Positions 23,634 to 37,200 of a DNA stretch of 60,496 nucleotides are shown one piece after another. Source of the stretch: Pezizomycotina sp. ARF18 (taxonomy: Eukaryota; Ascomycota); NCBI GenBank assembly GCA_002224055.1, contig AZLU01000242.1, forward strand, positions 1 to 60,496, in the 5' to 3' direction. Within the stretch, counting starts at the first letter, position 1; every line of letters starts with the position of its first letter. A program made the translations under genes and the position numbers. Under the pieces are notes generated by a model. The model made no database searches. It saw only the letters and a list, made by a program, of their open reading frames with translations, and was not told the DNA's origin.

Positions 23634-26600
23634 TTACCAGGCCATAACATCGTTATCAAATCTCTTCAATTCTTTTCCGGCATCCTCCACGTCCTTCTTA
23701 GCTTTCATTCTCATATAGAATATAGGACAGTCCTCTGCTGCTGCAAATAACTTCACAGTGGATAGACCCCTGGCATCTGTAAACACGAGCGAGGGATTTA
23801 GTTAGAGGAGAAAATTCATAGAGCTTCAACGAGGTTTAGTCGGAAAGCATACCTTTGACATTGGGTCCATAATCGACCGAACCTTATTTCTAGGTCGGAT
23901 ACCTTGTGCAGCTATATGTACGTTACTTAATGGAAAGGGAAAAAAAAGTCAAGGCTGAGTTTGGCAATTTAATATAATTGGCTGCGGCATCCTTACAGTC
24001 TTCTGGTAGAGCTCTCCAAATCTCGGTCTACAGTTTTCGCAGACGGCACCCTCGGTTTCTATTTCAAAAATTTATATTTAGTTGATCTGTCTCTTCGAGA
24101 TAAAGGAGTGATTCTGTGGTTTAACATACGTCTTTCTTAGTCAGTGGGGCCCTTGCATCCCATGCAGGTTTGGGTCTTCTTCGCAAACTTCATGAGCCCG
24201 CCCATCATCGGCGCTGCTACCGAAATTGTCCTGGTGTGATCACCGGTCACTGTTGCGTAGAGTTTACCAAATTTAGCAAATCAACAAATCGGAAAGCATC
24301 TAGCTATACTATAGTTTGCTATTTCGGAGGGAACTTACGAAGCAAATTTGCTTTCTTTTCACCAAGAATAGGTTCGAAATTCTTGTAAGAGGCTTTGCAA
24401 GCTGATTATCCAAGTAGTAACTTGGTGTCGATGGGGACATTGTTCTCCAGGACATATATAGGATCTTCAGACTTTTCGTAATTTTTGGCGCCTCCAGCTC
24501 CTTTCACTATGACATAAGCCACACGGTCTCCAAGCGCCGGTGCAGAACCTGTTCCGAGTTCCAGGGGATTAGTTCGATGCCTAGGGCCTCTTATTGTTGC
24601 TCTCAATTTAGGGGCACTCACCCGCGTCGCGCTTTCGCATTCTTTCCGCAAGCTCGACGTGAGCTTGCTTGGCAGAGTACTCGGCTTTGGAAAGAGCTTT
24701 CGTAATCACGAGATTTGACATATCAATCTTATTCTGCAACAGGTCGGCGATCATTGTCTTGACGTATTCCTGTGCACCTTCAGGGTTTGGTCGATGAGGA
24801 TCTTCCGTAGCACCGTGTCGATCACAGTTTGCACGAGCCGACAGTTGTCTCTCCTTACGGTTTCGATACCTTTTGTGTCCATCTTATCGTACTTTTCGGT
24901 TCTAGTCCAGTATAAACCAGCGTATCGTTTCTTGTTGATGAGCAGGTAAGGAAAGTACACTTTTCGAATTCGAGCCTGATCGGCTTGATGAACTTCGAGG
25001 ACACATATCCCGCAGCTTCTTCTCACAAGTTCCATAGCAACTTTTAGGTCCTTGGGTCCGAATTTTACCATCACAGAATCCGTGTCACCGTATATGACAG
25101 TGGCGTCGTGGGAATACCCGTTCGCGATGGTGTATTTCTTTTCAACTTCCTGTGGGAATGGTCAGCTCATATCAAGCAAGTATTCATCGTCCTTAAGGCC
25201 GTACCTTTTTGTCATTTCAAATCATTTGGCGACCATAGCTGGTAACTGCTTGCGATAGCTAAACATGGGAGTTTCCCAACCGTTGCTCCAGTTATACCAT
25301 AGACCGAGTTGGCGGATATCTTCAAGGCAAGCTGACGACCGTTCAGCACGGCCTTTTTGAAAGGGTCCGTTTCTTTTTTCAGGTCCTAAATTAAAGTAAG
25401 TTAGGCGAATGTCCTAGTATAAGATTGTGAAGGAATTTGTTCCTACATCTTTGGCTCGCTTTCTGGCACCTAGTAGATCTTCAAAAATAATAGGAAGAAG
25501 ACCCTTTCGACGGAAGATTTAACAAAGAGGTCTCCATTGGGGGTCAACAGAGTAATCGGTATCCTTCTTTGAGACCCAGCTCTCAACAGTCTCTTTCTTG
25601 GTGAGAGTAGTATAACAAAGATTGTGTGCCATCATGATACTCGGATAAAGAGAACTGAAATCCAGGGTTGCGATGGGCACATTGTATATCCGCGAGTCGG
25701 TTCGATAACGGTGGCTCCTTCGTACTGCTCGTCACCGCCACCCTCGTTTCGGAGATTAGGAATGACGAGATTTTGCTCTGCAGCCTTTCGAAACAACTGT
25801 GACAAGAACTTCACCTGCTGACACGAGCAAGAAGATAGTTGAACGGGACACCGGTCACACGAGCCATTTCCGTGTAGTTAACAAGGCACATTAGCTTGTC
25901 CATCAATCTTTGCGGTAAATACGCGTCCTAGTTTCGTGTTAGCTTGCATGATGCCTAAGGAGGAAAGGGCCCATCTGTTACCTTCAAACAGTAGACAGCT
26001 AGACGCCTTCGAGATTCCGGCGTGCCGTTGAAGAGTTCGTAATCATGGTGTGATGCACATCCTCTTTTTGTTCTCCTAGGAAATGTGCGCAAACGGAGTT
26101 GAGGGTATAACTTCTGAGCTGATGATCACGTTGGACGAGTTGCAGAAGATCAAGTTGGATTCTTCATTGGTATTGTAGCTTTAGTGTCCCTGTTTCCCAT
26201 CTGTTTGAGGAGAAAACTGGTATCTTTGGCTTCGGATTTAATGTGCTTATTCTTGTCCAGAACGGGAACTCTCTCAGCTTGAGATGCTTGGCGCGATCGA
26301 GGAGGTAAGGGAAATCGAAGTTCGCAATGTTGTAGCCGATGATTACATCCGGATCCACCTCTTGCAGGAATTCAGACCATTTAAGCAACATTTCTTCTCC
26401 CTTTCAAACTGGAGACTTGTGTATTCACAATGAGAGAGCAGGTGTCCAAACAGAAAACGTTGCGAATGAACGGCTGGGAGTCACCATATGCGAGTGACCA
26501 CACTGGCGATTTGAATGACGGGATCCATATTCGCTTCTGGGAATATTCCTTTCTACCGCACATTCGATATCAAAAGACATGATGCGAAGTGGCGCCATCC

Positions 26601-27832
26601 TTGACCACTCGCCCTCGGCGGCGTGCGCGATAAGGTGGTGGTAATGGCATTGGGCCTCGATCTGAGAAGTGCAAAGCCGGCCAGCGTCTTTGCCCGAGGA
26701 ATATACTTGTATTTATCCTTTTTTACCTCTACCCACGTCATACCTTGCATCTAGATAGAGCCATCATTAGTCATCACCCAGAGGGAAGTCCGAACATTAT
26801 TAATGGTCGTGTCTTCCTACCTTTGTATCACCATGAACCTCATGATATACTGTATATTATCAAAGGTCATGATCCCACATCAGCCCTCTCCACATATTGT
26901 TGAAATTGGCTTCTCCCCTCTCAATAATGCCTCTGACGCGGCCGGCGTTTTTCGGATCGTTACTGAGATTTTTAGGTAAGGCACATTTGGTTTCCCTGGA
27001 ATCCATACAGATTTTCCCTCATAACGATGGCGACGGAGCTGATGACACTGTCGCCTCCCCTGCCACCTGGAAACTTTCGATTCCAAGAATTTCTGGAACC
27101 CTGCGCAATGTTCTTGGGTAAAATTGACAGGCGCTGCCACATAAAGGTAATGCAGAAAATCTGTGACATGCAGTACGACGAATGTCCGCTCTAGTAATAA
27201 AGCCTGATGTAAGTCAATTGAAACCATAAAAATCGTAAGGAGTTCGAAGGTTTCTAACCTCAGTGACACCAAAAAGCTTCACGGATATTGCCATTATAAT
27301 ATCCCTCTTCCGCATCGATCTGTTGGAATACTTTTCATAAAGAAGCAAAGCAATTAGTCCAGTCGTTGGACTCTTCGACGGTCGAGCGGTCACTAATATG
27401 GTAGCAAGTAACTTACGCTTCTCTATTGGTACCCATCATCCAACTTGGGCGGGCCCATTCTGATCGGTTTCGGCGTTGGCTATTGTTTGAAAGCAGTTAG
27501 CATGCCATGGTGGCAAAGAGCCAACGAATGAATTCTTCCGAACAAACTCGGGAATAGAGAAAAAGTTGCAGTCATGAGTAGAATGAACGAGCGAGGAAGC
27601 TGGGTGACGGCGATTAGTGTCTAGCTGACCTCCTTTGAGTTCGCTGATTTCCTGGTTAGCCTCCCAGATCTTCTTCGAACGACGACTTGACTTGCGAGCT
27701 CTTCATCGATCTACTAACTGCCGGAGGTCGTCATTTCGCGCTTCGAGCTTTCGCTTCTTGTGTCAATGTCCCTAGCATTTGCACGTTTGCGTGGTCGTTG
27801 AGGACGCGTTTTGCTGCTGGAGCTGGTGGCAT
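23634..27832 (-). CDS. POL3: DNA polymerase delta catalytic subunit
   Basis: Replicative B-family polymerase with 3'-5' exonuclease, working with PCNA in the nucleus. The ATG ends at 27832 and is followed by [18 protein letters not shown]. The N-terminal domain contains [14 protein letters not shown]. Exonuclease motif II is in [20 protein letters not shown] near 26300. Polymerase motif A is [17 protein letters not shown] near 25650, motif [13 protein letters not shown] near 25310, and motif [15 protein letters not shown] near 25075, with both catalytic Asp pairs intact. The C-terminal cysteine modules are [22 protein letters not shown] and LWTQCQRCQGS, the last being the Fe-S/B-subunit site. 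The end is [20 protein letters not shown], stopping at 23634. It has many introns. Several one-base frameshifts occur, one just before DCPIFY; since this gene is essential they are best read as sequence errors. Confidence 0.93.
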
Positions 27833-29685
27833 CTTTGCTGGTTGTGACCCTTAGTCTGCTCCTTTCGATACCTTGGCCGAGTCTAACGGGGATGAAGAAT
27901 TATACGACAGAAGGCAAATATTCCGAGGATGAACCGCGTTTTTTAAAGCCCTGAAGGAGATTCGTAGGGTTATAAAACTGGATAAGTGAATAGAAAGACG
28001 ATGGTCCGGATGCTATGAAGCTGAGAAGGCGCTGGCGAGCTTGAGGACGACGAGTTTGTTGCCGTTGGGAAGCTTTCGAGTTTCGAAAATTGACAAAAAA
28101 AGCAAGCTGCGGCGCGAGAAATAAGGAAGGAAAATAATAAGTGAAAAGAAGTTGTTGCTTATACGTTAATTTAACAGCAATTAAAAAATAAAACCAGAAA
28201 AAGCCGACTAAGCCTAATTTGTAGAAAATTAGGCGGAATATTACCTAAAGCGGTAAGATACAGTGCACGCTCTGGAGACAAATCTGGAAAGTCAAATAAA
28301 TAAGTGGTCATGTGACTCACGCGACACGCGACACGCGCTTACCTGCTGAAGGTGCACGCAGACTTTGTTGCTCTACTAGAAACAGGACCAATACTAACGG
28401 TCAAAAAAAAAAAAAAAAAAATAGACCAGAGTACAATTCCCCTTTTACAATGAGCACCCGCCTAGACACCTTTCTTTAAATACCAAGTACCGTCTACCAT
28501 CTGTACCTTAAGATTGAGCAAGTACTTTAGGAAGCATATTCAAAACTCAAGCCAGTTTGTCTTGTCTGGCAAAATGAGGTCAAGACATACGAATTGTACG
28601 GCCTAAGTATGACATCTGCTACCACGTCGTATAGAATATCTGCGGAATAAGGTGAACTGGGTTTTCCGGCTTCGAATTGTCACGGGTATATGTAAATTCT
28701 AATAATTGCCCTCGGTTTAGTATTGTTTATAAACATATGAATTCGATTTTATCGAATTTAATTTTAATTAAATTTTTTTTTTTTAACAATTCAAAGTTAT
28801 TTAAAATATCAAAGTTAATAGGAATGCTTCGAAACGTAGGACGGAAAAATAATAATAATGGGTTAAAAGTTGTCTTGTACCCAGCCTCAGTAAATTAATT
28901 TTGGTCCTGCGGGAAACAATAGAGATAGTAAAGAGTCTGGGCACGAGACAAGGTTAAAAGGTGTTTTGCATGTAGTCAATTTTTACGGTATTATCAATCC
29001 CCCTTGTTAGTGAACAATGCTAAGTTCTTGCTGATGTACAGAACAATGTTAAGCAGACCGCGGAACAAACTTAAGTAATGCGTCAACCGCTTTCAGAGGA
29101 ATACTCTGAGATATAGAGAAGCCGAGCCTTGATGAACTAATAACCCGATTTTTGTCCTACGTATCGGCCCTTTGAATTTTCGCCTCTCCTTCGGCTCATA
29201 TCATGGAGAACAAATTTATACTTAGGAGAGTAGTAGCAGGACCTTTAAAGGCTGCTCAGTTAGCAAGCCGATAGCGCTTTCTGTCAGTGATTGGCAGTTC
29301 TACTTACCTTCTTCTCTGGCACTATCGAGTGCTGAAGTCAAGTAGTCAAGAACGAATAACTTGATGATGAAGAACCATATATCAAGATTTGGACACTACC
29401 TTGGTAAAGCAAGAGCAAAATTCTGTGACGCAACTGCTTTGGAAATGTTAAGACAGGAAAAAAAAAAAAAAAAAAAGGAGGCAATAGTAGTCTCTGGGTT
29501 AGTATCGACATGGTTGCTTAGCATTGTTCATAGTTTCGTTTCCGCAAGCTTCCATCCGTCTTATACTGCTGCTGAAATCAAAGCAAAGTCTGATGATATG
29601 ATGGGAAAAGGACCGGTCTCTTGAGATTGTTGCGCTTGCTTAGTTACTTCTTTGCAATTTTATATTTTATTTATTTATTATTATG

Positions 29686-29724
<39 letters not shown>

Positions 29725-30101
29725 TTCTATGAATATTCTTCTAGTTCACGAAAATAAAATCCACTTCACAACTTGTTAAAAAAAAAATTTACCACCTGAA
29801 CTTTTCCAACCAACTTTCCTACATCATCACCATAAATTAAACACTACTTCCAAAAATTACAACCCCACGCCTCAAATCTACGACCAAGTACAAAAACAAC
29901 AAAAAAAATCCTCCAAAGTCTCTCCAAAGAAAAAGAAAAACGGAAATAACCAGATTTCTATAATTCTCCACTTCTAAGCGTCCCCTAATACTACCATCAC
30001 AGCAAAGGTTTGTAAGCACATTCCCTATCTTGCTCATTTCGTCGACTCAGCAGTAATCTATATATCTTATGGAATACATTGTTAGACAGTGATTAACGAA
30101 G
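27833..30101. other. Long spacer upstream of POL3
   Basis: Contains the POL3 promoter side, an A run near 28404, and a TTA microsatellite at about 29684-29723. Short readings at 28677-28898 and 29361-29624 are AT-driven or interrupted by homopolymers and are not called as genes. Confidence 0.5.
29684..29723. repeat. TTA trinucleotide microsatellite
   Basis: More than ten TTA units with a few interruptions at the left end, in non-coding DNA. Confidence 0.9.
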
Positions 30102-30413
30102 ATGGTTTTCATTAGAGAATCTCTGCCTACGGACGAAATGAAGCCTATCACAAGCAATCCGGTGGTTGTTACCATTACTTCTGCTTCCACTGGTACATCC
30201 ACAAGTATCACCGCAAGCGTCGGCCAGGATGCTGATCCTCCCAAGGACCAACGCCGTGGTAAGTATACTAATTCCTTTTGCAGGTTTCTCAGAAGCCTCT
30301 ATTTACCTAAATATCTTCTCTCCCTTTCTTGTTAAAGGCTTCCTTTTACTAACATTGTTCGTATCATCGCGGAAAAAACAGGTCAAGCTTTTTACGGCTG
30401 CATAATCGTCTAA
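30102..30413 (+). CDS. Putative CaaX-tailed small peptide (a-factor-like pheromone precursor candidate)
   Basis: Two exons, 30102-30258 and 30382-30413, with an intron that begins GTAAGT, has a CTAAC branch-like site about 30 nt before the end, and ends CAG. Spliced, they encode 62 residues. The first ~45 are rich in Thr, Ser and Val. Then come a basic DQRR, the short aromatic stretch GQAFYG, and the terminal CIIV. Cys-aliphatic-aliphatic-X at the very C-terminus is a prenylation signal. Known ascomycete a-type pheromone precursors are tiny Ser/Thr-rich proteins with an aromatic/Gly-rich segment before a CaaX box, so the architecture fits; no sequence identity is claimed. It sits alone in a ~3.5 kb spacer, consistent with the long UTRs of pheromone genes. 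The Met at residue 13 is an alternative start. A chance short ORF remains possible. Confidence 0.42.
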
Positions 30414-31318
30414 TCAATATACACACATGCTGCCCGGCACATTCTAACAGACAGCATAGTAATTCAACATCTTTTCACCAATGGAAAAATTTTCTTTCTC
30501 AGTATGCTGCGCATACGCATCGACTTTTAAAAAGGCATTTTATCTTCTTGGTACTGGGATGAAGAAAAGCACCACCGCAAAAGAGATTCCAGGATCAAGG
30601 AGAGAGAAGGGAGATTGCAAAACATCTTCTAGGAAATTCCAAATGTTTTAATCATCTAATCTTTTAATATTTTACCCCCTTTAGTTCCCTAATTCACATT
30701 TAGTTTTATAATCCCGAAGGACGCTCGTTTTTTAATTCATATTCCGCTGTTAGTTTGATAAGATTGTTTATTTACTATTTCCTTTCTTCTATTTCGTTCT
30801 TTCTAAAACCGTTCTTTATTTTTCTCAGTTTTATATTAGACAAATAATAATCATAATATCGTTTCCCATTTCGCGCTATTTGGATAACCTCCCACCCCCC
30901 TTCCTTCTTGCAATCCCCTCTTCACCTCTGTTTTCTATAGAACAATATGCTTGGTTAACGGAGTTTACGAGTCATACGTGTAAAAGTTCTTGTACGAGAA
31001 GTCTATTATATAATACCATTTTCATGAAACAAAACTCGTTATCTCGATAAAATATATAAAGCTGTTTATAATCTACGAAGCGTAAGAATGGGGCTGTTTC
31101 CAGATCAGAATTGCTTGCTTACACACACACACATATATATATATATAATATAAATATGTATAATGATGTATGCTAGTGGCGGCCGGTATACGTAAAAAAG
31201 AAAAGAAGAAAACTCCGAGATCAAAATACACAATGGCCACTTTTGCGCTATGTGGCTTCGCGAGAACACCGAGAATCTTTCGGGAACTACAAGCTGGAGA
31301 TTCCCATTCAAGCCTTTG
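30414..31318. other. Non-coding spacer
   Basis: AT-rich sequence with a CA/TA microsatellite at about 31121-31149. No supported gene. It would be the 3' region of the small CaaX gene and of the next minus-strand gene. Confidence 0.5.
31121..31149. repeat. AC/AT dinucleotide microsatellite
   Basis: An AC run passes directly into an AT run, in a convergent 3' spacer. Confidence 0.88.
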
Positions 31319-33448
31319 TCATCCATTTTCTTTTCGCTCCTCTTGTAACCGTTCAAAGGTGTACGCCATCATATCTAAGTCTAGTTTGGCGGGGGGCAAC
31401 GTCCTAGATAACGCAAAATATTAGTTCATACTCATCAGAAAAGTTATTGAGATAGTAATGGTAGAATGGGCGGAGATTTGTGCTTTTTACCTCCTGATCC
31501 AATCTTCGACACCTGGCGTCCAGGTTCTTCCTAAACGCACTCTCTGCATTCTTAATGACATTCGTCCATCGCTGCTGCGCCTCCTCCACCTTCCCACCTT
31601 CGTATATCCCAAGCTTTTGCCTTAAAATCTCGTTCGCTAGTATTAGATAGTAAAAATTGGCAGTCGTGGTTATCGTAGAATACAATTCCATGAATTTCGG
31701 CCACTCCATCTTAAAGTCCTTGCCCGGAAATCTTCGCTGTAGTCAGGGAACAAGAATTCATGTAGTGATTCTAATAAACCGGCGATAGGAAGATCGAGTG
31801 GTCGGACGCATCTGCTCGGAGCGCGGCCACTACTTCGTCTTTCAGAATACCGATAACGGCAGCCTTGAGAGCTTCAAAGGACAGTGCTCTAGGGTATCTC
31901 TAATGTACGCCAACCGTACCTCTTCTCTCGGGTGTCGATTGAGAATGTCGGCAACATGGGTATGCGCAAGGAACTGATGGCTGGGTCTGGCGAAGTGGCG
32001 GAAATGGCAGCATATTTCTGAATATAAAGTAGGAATTTGTCGTCATTATTGGGGAGATCCGCGGAAGCCTTCGAGTCTGCAGCTTGTGTGTTTGATTTTC
32101 GCCGGAGGATCCAGCTACGAGAAAGAGGAGCGCGTCCACAATCGAAGCTGGAGGATCGCCTTGCAGATGTAGAGAGGAGAGTTGCGCGTGCTGAGGGAAA
32201 ATTTTGAGCTCCGTTAGGTGCGATGCATCGTCTGGAGTTCTTAGGATCTTGGCCGCTAGGAGTAACAAACTTCCCCGGGAGAAAGAGATATGTCTGCGGC
32301 AAACTTGGGGTCTCAGGAGTAACGGGACGCTCGTTGGAATCCGATGAACTAACATCCGAACGTTAGTATATTCTCATGATATTAAAAGCATCCTTAAAGC
32401 GAGTCCAAGAACATACGATCCGGTATCATAGTGGCCCGAGCAAATGGCTGGCGGTAATATTCAATTTTTCGCTTAGGTCCTATTGCTGTTTATTTAGCAC
32501 CAAGCAAGATATATCGTTAATCAACCTTGGGTTACTTACCGCTAACAGCGAACTGAAATAAGACAGCGTCGATCTCTTCTTGCGATTCTACCGGCTCATC
32601 AGGGCCGTGCTGCTGCTTGATCTCTCCGAACACACACCTTCTCCACCTTGCGGCCCAGGAACGATCTTCTTCGGCTGCACGGTCTTGTAATAGCGGCTAG
32701 CAACCTAGCTGTCCTTGCATCGTCGCCGCTTCCGGATAAGAATTCTTCAACCAAGTGCGTTGCGAAAGCTTCCTGGAGCTTCGAACAGACCGGCGCATCC
32801 TCCTCCTCCTCCTCCTGCTCGACTTTCTCCATTGGCACGACCGTATCAAAGTATTTGTCGACAAGGCTTAAAATTTCGGCGTTCTTCTTAGCCGAAAAGC
32901 TTTGCGAAGCTCTCGAAAACATTCCCAGGATGCTGGTCAGACTGCTGGTCAGAAACCTGGACAGCTTCTTGGTTTGGATTCTTGACTGGACGATGGCCAG
33001 TAATTCTAAGAGGAGAAGGGCCTGGTCGGCATATAATCTGATTCCGGACCCAGTCGCTCAAGAGGTTCGTCGTCGGCGTCGAACGATGCCTCGGAACCAT
33101 TCTCGTCGCCCACTTTGATTTTAACGTCCGTTTCTCCACCTTCCATGACCGCCCTCTGTCCGTGGAAATCCATAGAGGATAGCTGCCGGTAATAACCAGG
33201 AAGACCTCGCGAGGGTTACCGATCTTTGTAGATAACGCATCAATTCTTGACAGCAGCTTTCGTCCTATCTTCCGTTGGCTTTACATCACTACTGGCTCCT
33301 GGCTCATGACTACTCGTCGCGGGCTTGTGGGTAACGAATGGTAAAAGTACGGGGATCAAGTCCCATGCAACGTTCGTCGCCAGCTCTTCCTAAAAATCAA
33401 AAATTGATGCTTTGCCTTTAGTATCAAGTAAACAGAGACCATCCAGAA

Positions 33449-34818: not shown

Positions 34819-37200
34819 ATGGCTGAGGGCACCAGGCCAGTCAAGCTTTACGTCTACGACCTCAGTAGAGGTAAGCTGTTAACCACCGAGGGGTTGAAAT
34901 AATATACTCAGAAGATGTAACTAACAAGTTCCCTTGTCTGTTCCAGGCATGGCGCGACAGGTAGACTCCACCGCCTTTACAGTTCCACGAGATCAGATTA
35001 ATCTCCAATGTGCCCATTATGCATATGTTCCGTTGTGGGAATCTAGGGCTGACCACCGCAAATTTGCGCAGCTAGCTCTCACAAGCTTTGATCGGCAGAA
35101 TGATCGAAGCCGTATACCATACTAGCATTGTAGTGGGTGCTACAGAATACTTCTACGGTTCGTGGACGGTCCCTTAAAGCAACTTGGAGAGCTTCCCAAA
35201 TATTTCTTCGAGAAAGTCTAGGGTTTTAACGATTCTATTTATATAGCTATGGCATTCAAAACAGTCGGCCGGCGCGACACATCACGGTGCGCCGATGGAA
35301 GTCATAGATCTAGGCGTCACAGCATTATCTGACGATATAATACGCGAGTATCTTGGTAGCATTGAAGCAGATATATACTCCAGAGGTCAGAGCCAACTGG
35401 CGCATTCCTCCTTTTGCGCGAAAACCGCACTATGCTAATTTTCTTTTCAACCTATAAATAGGCATATGATTTGTTCATGGTACTTGAGCTCCGTTCACCA
35501 ATTTTTATGCTTTATAGAGAGGCAAGCGCTTACCAGCATCACATCTAGAACAATTGTAACAATTTCAGCAATGATTTCGCAATGTTCCTCGTAGGGAAAG
35601 GTATTCCCGACAAGATCACCGGCCTACCCAAGAAGTCCTGGATACTCCGTTTGGGCAAATGCTGCGACCCACAATCGAAGTGAGTATACTTTCGTGAGGT
35701 TTCACTCCAGGAAGCCTACTATTGCGTAAAATCATATAGAATATCTAACCTAGACGCTAGGCCGCGATGCGTCCAATCACAGCAGCTCCACCCGCAGTAC
35801 CCGGCCCTCTCCCGTCTTCGTCGGCTCTGCCATCGACAAACGGCCAAAGTGGCGGCATTCGCGTGATCAGCAACCTGAGGGAGATGGACAACGCGCTGCA
35901 ATCGGCCAAGGACAGAGTAGCCGTCGTCTTCTTCACCTCCGCCACATGTCCTCCCTGCAGGGCCGTCTACCCACTCTTTGAGCAATTGGCTTCGGAATTC
36001 GGTGCTAAGGCGGTTTTTATCAAAGTGGACGTCGGCGAGGCATTCGATGTCGGCAGCAAGTACCAGATCAGAGCGACGCCGACTTTCTCCACGTACGCAA
36101 AGGGGAGAAGATAGATCAGTGGACAGGCAGCGAACGAGAATTCTAAGGGCGGGTGTTAATTCCGCTATCGCCTTCGCTTTTCCGGCGCACCCGCATTGGA
36201 CCTTACGTCTGCCCATCACGTTGAATTCGGTGAAGAATTATCCGGTTCTCTTCCCCAAGCTTCCACCGCTTGATAAAGTCGTAACGAAGATGGGAGATCT
36301 GGGTACGGATCCGGCGGTGGTGTTCATGAAGGAGTTCGTAACCACGAGGCAGACGCTAGCTAGCAACGCTGCCGTCCCTGATCTAGGAATATGGTCAGAA
36401 TTCGTGGAGAAATGTCTCAATACTATACCACTCGACATATGCTTCCCTGTTATTGATTTCTTCAGATTGGCATTGGTGGACCGAGGGTGTCAGCCTGGTT
36501 CGCTGAACAGAAAGGTATGAGAAGCAACCTGCGTCCTTTATGGTTACAGCATTCCTTCCCGCAGTCTGGATTGGAATAGCCATCTAACGAACAACGACTG
36601 ATATTTTAATAGGTCACAATACAATATCAAGGTCCTAATAGCCGCTGATGGAGACACGTGCCGTACTCGTTCCGCCTCGTCACGCTGCAGTTAGCTTGTA
36701 ACCTCTTCTCATCGCCGCTATTCCCACTGCAACTCATCATGCCACCGTTATCTAACTGCTCGTGCTGCTGATAACATCGAGCCTGCTTGACGCAGCCACC
36801 CGCAAAGCCGCGTCGCCGCCTCGTCGCTAGCGTTCAACCTTGCCGCATTCAACCAAAAAAAGCGGTCTGAAGCGACTGAACCTGCTGCCGCTGCGGGCTC
36901 TCCGACGACGACTCTATCCAATTAGTCGCCGGCATTATCGAAGCCATAGATCGTGAGCACTCTGCTGCGGAAGAAAGTCAATCCAGCGAAACGCTAAGGG
37001 CCTGTTGCTGAGCTTGGCGCTGCTGATTTACGGTGTGGACATCAAGGGCGAAATGGCGGAGCTGGTCAGGGTACTTGACGCGGGAGATCTATATCGAGCA
37101 TCGGAAAGAAAGGCTCAGCTGCGCTACTCGCTGCGGATGGTGCGAAGCTGTGCAAAGAGGTTGGGAAGAGCTAATTATTAAGGGTCTGGCGAAGAGTTGA
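34819..37200 (+). CDS. PPPDE peptidase - thioredoxin - PUL domain protein
   Basis: Three domains in one chain. The PPPDE (DeSI-like isopeptidase) domain begins at 34819 with PVKLYVYDLSRGMARQ. Its catalytic His is in AVYHTSIVVGATEYFYG (about 35110) and its Cys in NNCNNFSNDFAMFLVGKGIP (about 35565). A thioredoxin domain lies at about 35850-36110, with FFTSATCPPCRAVYPLFEQL (CPPC active site) and ATPTFSTYAKG. A PUL domain, the Cdc48/p97-binding module of Doa1/PLAA, starts at about 36230 (NYPVLFPKLPPLDKVV) and ends near 37200 (ELIIKGLAKS). PPPDE enzymes remove ubiquitin or SUMO-like modifiers, so a role in Cdc48-linked deconjugation is inferred. Introns split the PPPDE part into short exons. Frameshifts occur at about 35100 and 36105, with more in the second half of PUL. 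Confidence 0.88.

Follow-up and report, generated by a model that had tools for sequence, protein, structure and literature searches.

A two-exon mini-gene with a predicted CaaX end, a candidate a-factor-like lipopeptide precursor, in Pezizomycotina sp. ARF18

The maturation of fungal a-factors through prenylation, cleavage, methylation and export is well established, and the genes that encode these lipopeptide mating signals are very hard to detect through similarity. In basidiomycetes, pheromone genes are located near genes for Ste3-type receptors, and the protein described here may resemble the mature a2-type pheromone of Ustilago maydis, in which Arg-Gly-Gln stands close to the N-terminus and aromatic residues precede the Cys; the text of PMC3248468 was searched for this peptide sequence and did not yield it. 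The a-factor precursors described for Sordariomycetes, among them Neurospora mfa-1 and those of Magnaporthe and Chaetomium, are tiny and CaaX-ended, with Ser and Thr present (PMC3068285; PMC10569646), and several are encoded beside the genes for cyanate lyase and EBP2 (PMC3068285). In Leotiomycetes, a putative a-factor (Botrytis BCIN_13g03330 and its homologues) has 45–64 residues, a Ser/Thr-rich start and a CaaX end, an end that is not exclusive to a-factors (PMC10569646). The Trichoderma protein HPP1 represents an h-type, or hybrid, precursor (PMC3068285).

The locus analyzed here lies in a window of 60,496 nucleotides, the whole stretch of DNA under study, which is an entire contig (C242) of a genome of 46.36 Mb in 408 contigs. 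A preliminary description, made from this DNA alone, had proposed a mini-gene with exons at 30102–30258 and 30382–30413 as an a-factor-like precursor. These exon and intron coordinates were exact when checked against the sequence and its translation, and the features of the locus are as follows:

29780–30101, plus strand: probable 5′ leader, C- and A-rich, without coding bias
30102–30258, plus strand: exon 1, 52 codons and one base, moderately Ser/Thr-rich, with Arg-Arg at its end (from sequence and coding bias)
30259–30381, plus strand: intron of 123 nt with GTAAGT, CTAAC and CAG signals (from sequence, with actin introns for comparison)
30382–30413, plus strand: exon 2, remainder of the Gly codon, QAFYG, CaaX box CIIV and stop TAA (from sequence)
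30402–30410, plus strand: Ile-Ile-Val following the Cys, which would be the target of a CaaX protease if the frame is right (from sequence)
30414–30900, plus strand: probable 3′ untranslated stretch, without coding bias, outer limit approximate

The splice signals that had been proposed were all in place, with the donor GTAAGT at 30259, CTAAC at 30349–30353 and the acceptor CAG at 30379–30381; CTAAC lies ~30 nt upstream of the acceptor, with no AG in between. The intron length fits the 78–154 nt of the actin introns in the same genome. Translation of the spliced frame gave a protein of 62 residues with a single Cys and the C-terminus DQRRGQAFYGCIIV, followed by a TAA that ends at 30413, in agreement with the earlier reading of the end as RR-GQAFYG-CIIV. 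The statement that the unspliced frame runs into a meaningless tail was also borne out, as this frame continues for 25 codons beyond the donor to give a 77-codon ORF, and the codon model gives that extension a negative score. The start codon at 30102 has A at −3 and G at +4, and an in-frame stop is found upstream at 30090–30092. This stop closes an upstream ORF of seven residues (30069–30092), which is in the frame of the mini-gene and ends nine bases ahead of its ATG. In terms of composition, Ser and Thr make up 15 of the 52 residues at the N-terminal end, with 13 falling within residues 16–40, and the overall fraction of 0.24 was not the highest among 61 spliced mini-ORFs, of which the best reached 0.37. 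No signal peptide is evident in the predicted precursor when its sequence is read by eye. A search of its own genome found the mini-gene at one place only. The best matches of the 62-residue protein in Pfam (E 0.13) and PDB (E 0.49) were at chance level and were rejected.

The mini-gene is flanked on the left by POL3 (DNA polymerase delta; minus strand, inferred start 27832) and on the right by a Ybp2/glomulin-like gene (minus strand, inferred end near 31.4 kb). The spacer had been described as otherwise empty of genes, and indeed no Pfam family was matched at E up to 1 in the six frames of 28250–31500. The domains found within ~10 kb were POL3, Ybp2/glomulin-like, PPPDE, thioredoxin, PUL and a weak C2H2 match. 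On the plus strand at ~35000–36800, the domains for PPPDE peptidase, thioredoxin and PUL follow one another in this order, and they may belong to one protein. A tblastn plasmid search gave no match.

The locus was compared with the described systems. The protein is shorter than 100 residues and, if there is no indel here, carries a C-terminal CaaX box, and its 62 residues fit the size of the Leotiomycete putative a-factors (PMC10569646). The end itself differs from those published. The Leotiomycete homologues mostly end in CTVM, and CIIV is absent from the ends listed in PMC10569646; Gly-Tyr occurs near the end in 87, not all, of these homologues, which come from at least 111 species, and is lacking here. 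Gly-Tyr is also found near the Cys in the Sordariomycete a-factors described in that source, and the Magnaporthe candidate ends in HYCVIM (PMC3068285), whereas the end found here reads YGCIIV, with FYGC rather than Gly-Tyr directly before and at the CaaX Cys and without the usual final Met or Ala. HPP1, like the mini-gene product, has a dibasic pair and a Gly adjoining the CaaX Cys on its N-terminal side, but it is described as having three (L/I)GC(T/S)VM motifs (PMC3068285), a repeat that a protein with one Cys does not possess. The neighborhood differs as well, with POL3 and a Ybp2/glomulin-like gene in the place of cyanate lyase and EBP2 (PMC3068285); no cyanate lyase, EBP2 or MYND zinc-finger gene was found within ~10 kb, a Sordariomycete arrangement that is not defining outside that class. 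The basidiomycete P/R arrangement was not seen, since neither an STE3 nor a mating-type domain was matched in six frames within ~10 kb (18260–41490), where frame breaks reduce sensitivity.

Coding potential was assessed using a codon model for which 876 actin and POL3 codons of the same genome served as the training set. Exon 1 scored 0.239 nats per codon, which is inside the range of the held-out actin and POL3 blocks (−0.015 to 0.42). This score was reached by none of 2000 letter shuffles of exon 1, and by none of the 560 ORFs of at least 45 codons that arose when the spacer was dinucleotide-shuffled 150 times. Scored in sliding windows, the frame-0 coding signal began at the ATG and ended at the donor, while the intron as a whole and the presumed untranslated stretches scored −0.13 to −0.33 in all three plus-strand frames. 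One 42-base window in the intron scored 0.17, in a third frame. From ~30114 to 30200 a second frame scored about equal to the proposed one, and an indel within exon 1 is therefore possible. When ranked among the 61 spliced mini-ORFs from the window and the control DNA (22 of 83 were left out because they contained N or had a very short first exon), exon 1 tied at ranks 5–7 by total score and 9–11 per codon, the ties arising because it was counted with three acceptors; at least one mini-ORF ranked above it was a fragment of POL3.

The rarity of the CaaX end was estimated against control DNA of 196,878 bases in 20 stretches; of the 21 contigs with the lowest numbers among the 408, 20 contributed a single 10-kb stretch apiece. 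In a strict CaaX, the C had to be followed by A, V, I, L or T at the first position, by V, I, L, M or A at the second and by V, I, L, M, A, S, Q, T, F, C or N at the third. At three strictnesses of the splice signals, one of 6, one of 10 and one of 26 spliced mini-ORFs in the window had a strict CaaX end, compared to 0 of 11, 0 of 17 and 0 of 57 in the control; these rows are not independent because one exon 1 is recounted with each acceptor. With a broad definition and the loosest setting the window gave 2 of 26, the second being an unrelated frame at ~8.9 kb. Among all stops, 17 of 16,989 in the control and 6 of 5,424 in the window were preceded by a strict CaaX (82 and 23, respectively, by a broad one), and single-exon mini-ORFs had a broad CaaX in 3 of 389 cases in the window and a strict one in 1 of 1,330 in the control. 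From the stop and mini-ORF rates, about 0.006–0.03 spliced strict-CaaX mini-ORFs are expected by chance per window and about 3–13 per 46 Mb, so that such a mini-ORF is rare within one window but not unique in the genome on its signals alone. The coding bias of exon 1, the fit of the intron and the rarity of the CaaX end indicate that the locus is likely a small spliced gene.

The exact end of its product must be read against the quality of the assembly. The actin gene (on C382) matched a fungal actin sequence at 364 of 375 codons, and four frame breaks were required to do so. POL3 (23900–27832, minus strand) is scattered across all three frames, and a part of it 3.4 kb from the mini-gene needed 12 breaks over 526 aligned codons; the reference in this case was the distant yeast Pol3, so a few of these breaks may be alignment effects, and the actin figure is cleaner. 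Further family B polymerase matches were found on C35, C53, C196 and C257, and the gene at this locus could in principle be a decayed copy of POL3, but an actin that is almost identical to its reference shows breaks of the same kind, which makes errors in the assembly the more likely source. An actin-family locus on C15 was left out of the indel count owing to its poor alignment to conventional actin (142 identical codons). The assembly thus appears to be error-rich, with small indels, which makes ORF lists of this genome unreliable and any single reading frame uncertain. At the break rates of actin and POL3, the 189 coding bases of the mini-gene would be free of indels with a chance of about 0.51 or 0.24, respectively, and it is mainly because of these indels that caution is needed over the exact CIIV end.

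Other observations were made in the same assembly. The alignment of the actin gene (L004, ~600–2430 on C382) has six introns, with a four-base exon between the third and the fourth. On C189 the rDNA repeats follow one another at intervals of about 10.83–10.87 kb, and 1616–1896 of L014 (C189), close to where an SSU rRNA gene ends, is occupied by a group I intron; this locus in part reads N.

It is possible, if somewhat doubtful, that the spliced gene is real and its CaaX end an accident of an assembly indel or a wrong acceptor, the true protein being unprenylated and having another end. The indel density in actin and POL3 speaks for this, as do the further acceptors downstream that yield different tails, and exon 2, with 32 bases, is uninformative (−0.005 in the spliced frame over 9 codons versus 0.034 in another frame). 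Against it, the acceptor used is the first AG following a CTAAC, and a strict CaaX arises by accident at only ~0.1% of stops.

It is unlikely, though less so than a chance structure would be, that the product is indeed small, prenylated and CaaX-ended but acts outside mating, for example as a lineage-specific membrane-anchored peptide. Each of the seven annotated Leotiomycete genomes treated in PMC10569646 encodes 2–12 small CaaX proteins, and a CaaX end alone is therefore insufficient to define a pheromone. In addition, PMC11304957 names Val as one of the final residues for GGTase-I, and CIIV obeys the rule given there, Caa[L/F/I/M/V]; the sequence of this end is compatible with either geranylgeranylation or farnesylation. 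In yeast, mating is reported to be less efficient with a geranylgeranylated a-factor (PMC9231725). The short length, the lack of any Pfam match above the cut-off and the aromatic residues and Gly before the Cys are, by resemblance, more pheromone-like than such a role would suggest.

That there is no gene at all, and that an open frame and splice signals have come together by chance in a long spacer, is quite unlikely, for although a striking case could have been picked from the 3–13 equally good ones expected in the genome, the coding bias of exon 1 spans the stretch from ATG to donor, the start context is good and the control DNA gave none in 57.

Searches for partners and for known a-factor patterns were also performed in this genome. 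The STE3 family search and a yeast Ste3 query gave no candidates, and the same family was found in 0 of 14 control genomes, leaving the search with no positive control; the ICMT (Ste14-type) family search also gave none, with ICMT found in 5 of the 14 control genomes. All of these searches went exon by exon through the error-rich assembly. For these reasons the empty results were not counted as absence. The pattern GYCx(V/I/M)M-stop occurred at three places in the whole genome, none of which had an ATG between the nearest upstream stop and the end in the frame read, where splicing or indels could conceal a start. The third lies in or beside what we take to be, from its translation, an alkaline-ceramidase-like gene. 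The pattern GC(S/T)VM-stop had no match in this genome, compared to 1 and 2 in the reversed control, and a literature search found no paper with CIIV together with CaaX.

Returning to the proposal of an a-factor-like precursor, the small spliced gene was supported, but the pheromone role is a matter of resemblance. On the basis of its size, moderate Ser/Thr content, aromatic residues and Gly before the Cys, and CaaX end, we tentatively regard the product as a credible a-factor-like lipopeptide precursor. It also speaks for this reading that the searches with the two known a-factor patterns brought up no usable competing end in the genome. The two-exon mini-gene, present at one place in the genome, would be transcribed and spliced to encode a precursor of ~62 residues. 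Prenylation of the Cys in Cys-Ile-Ile-Val would then be followed by loss of Ile-Ile-Val and methylation of the Cys, and a cut that removes the N-terminal part, perhaps close to the Arg-Arg, would release a short lipopeptide ending in FYGC. This lipopeptide may be exported through a Ste6-type ABC transporter and recognized by a Ste3-type receptor, and in this way may function in mating. A more far-reaching version, which we consider quite unlikely, is that this is the a-factor of a fungal lineage from which no a-factor is known so far. With a CaaX box ending in Val, a YGC end, possible geranylgeranylation and a dibasic cut, it would have reached the same lipopeptide signal by a route of its own.

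Where an assembly is error-rich, a CaaX end obtained from one frame is to be weighed against the local indel rate. If confirmed, an a-factor in a further fungal lineage would help to test how lipopeptide mating signals have diverged.
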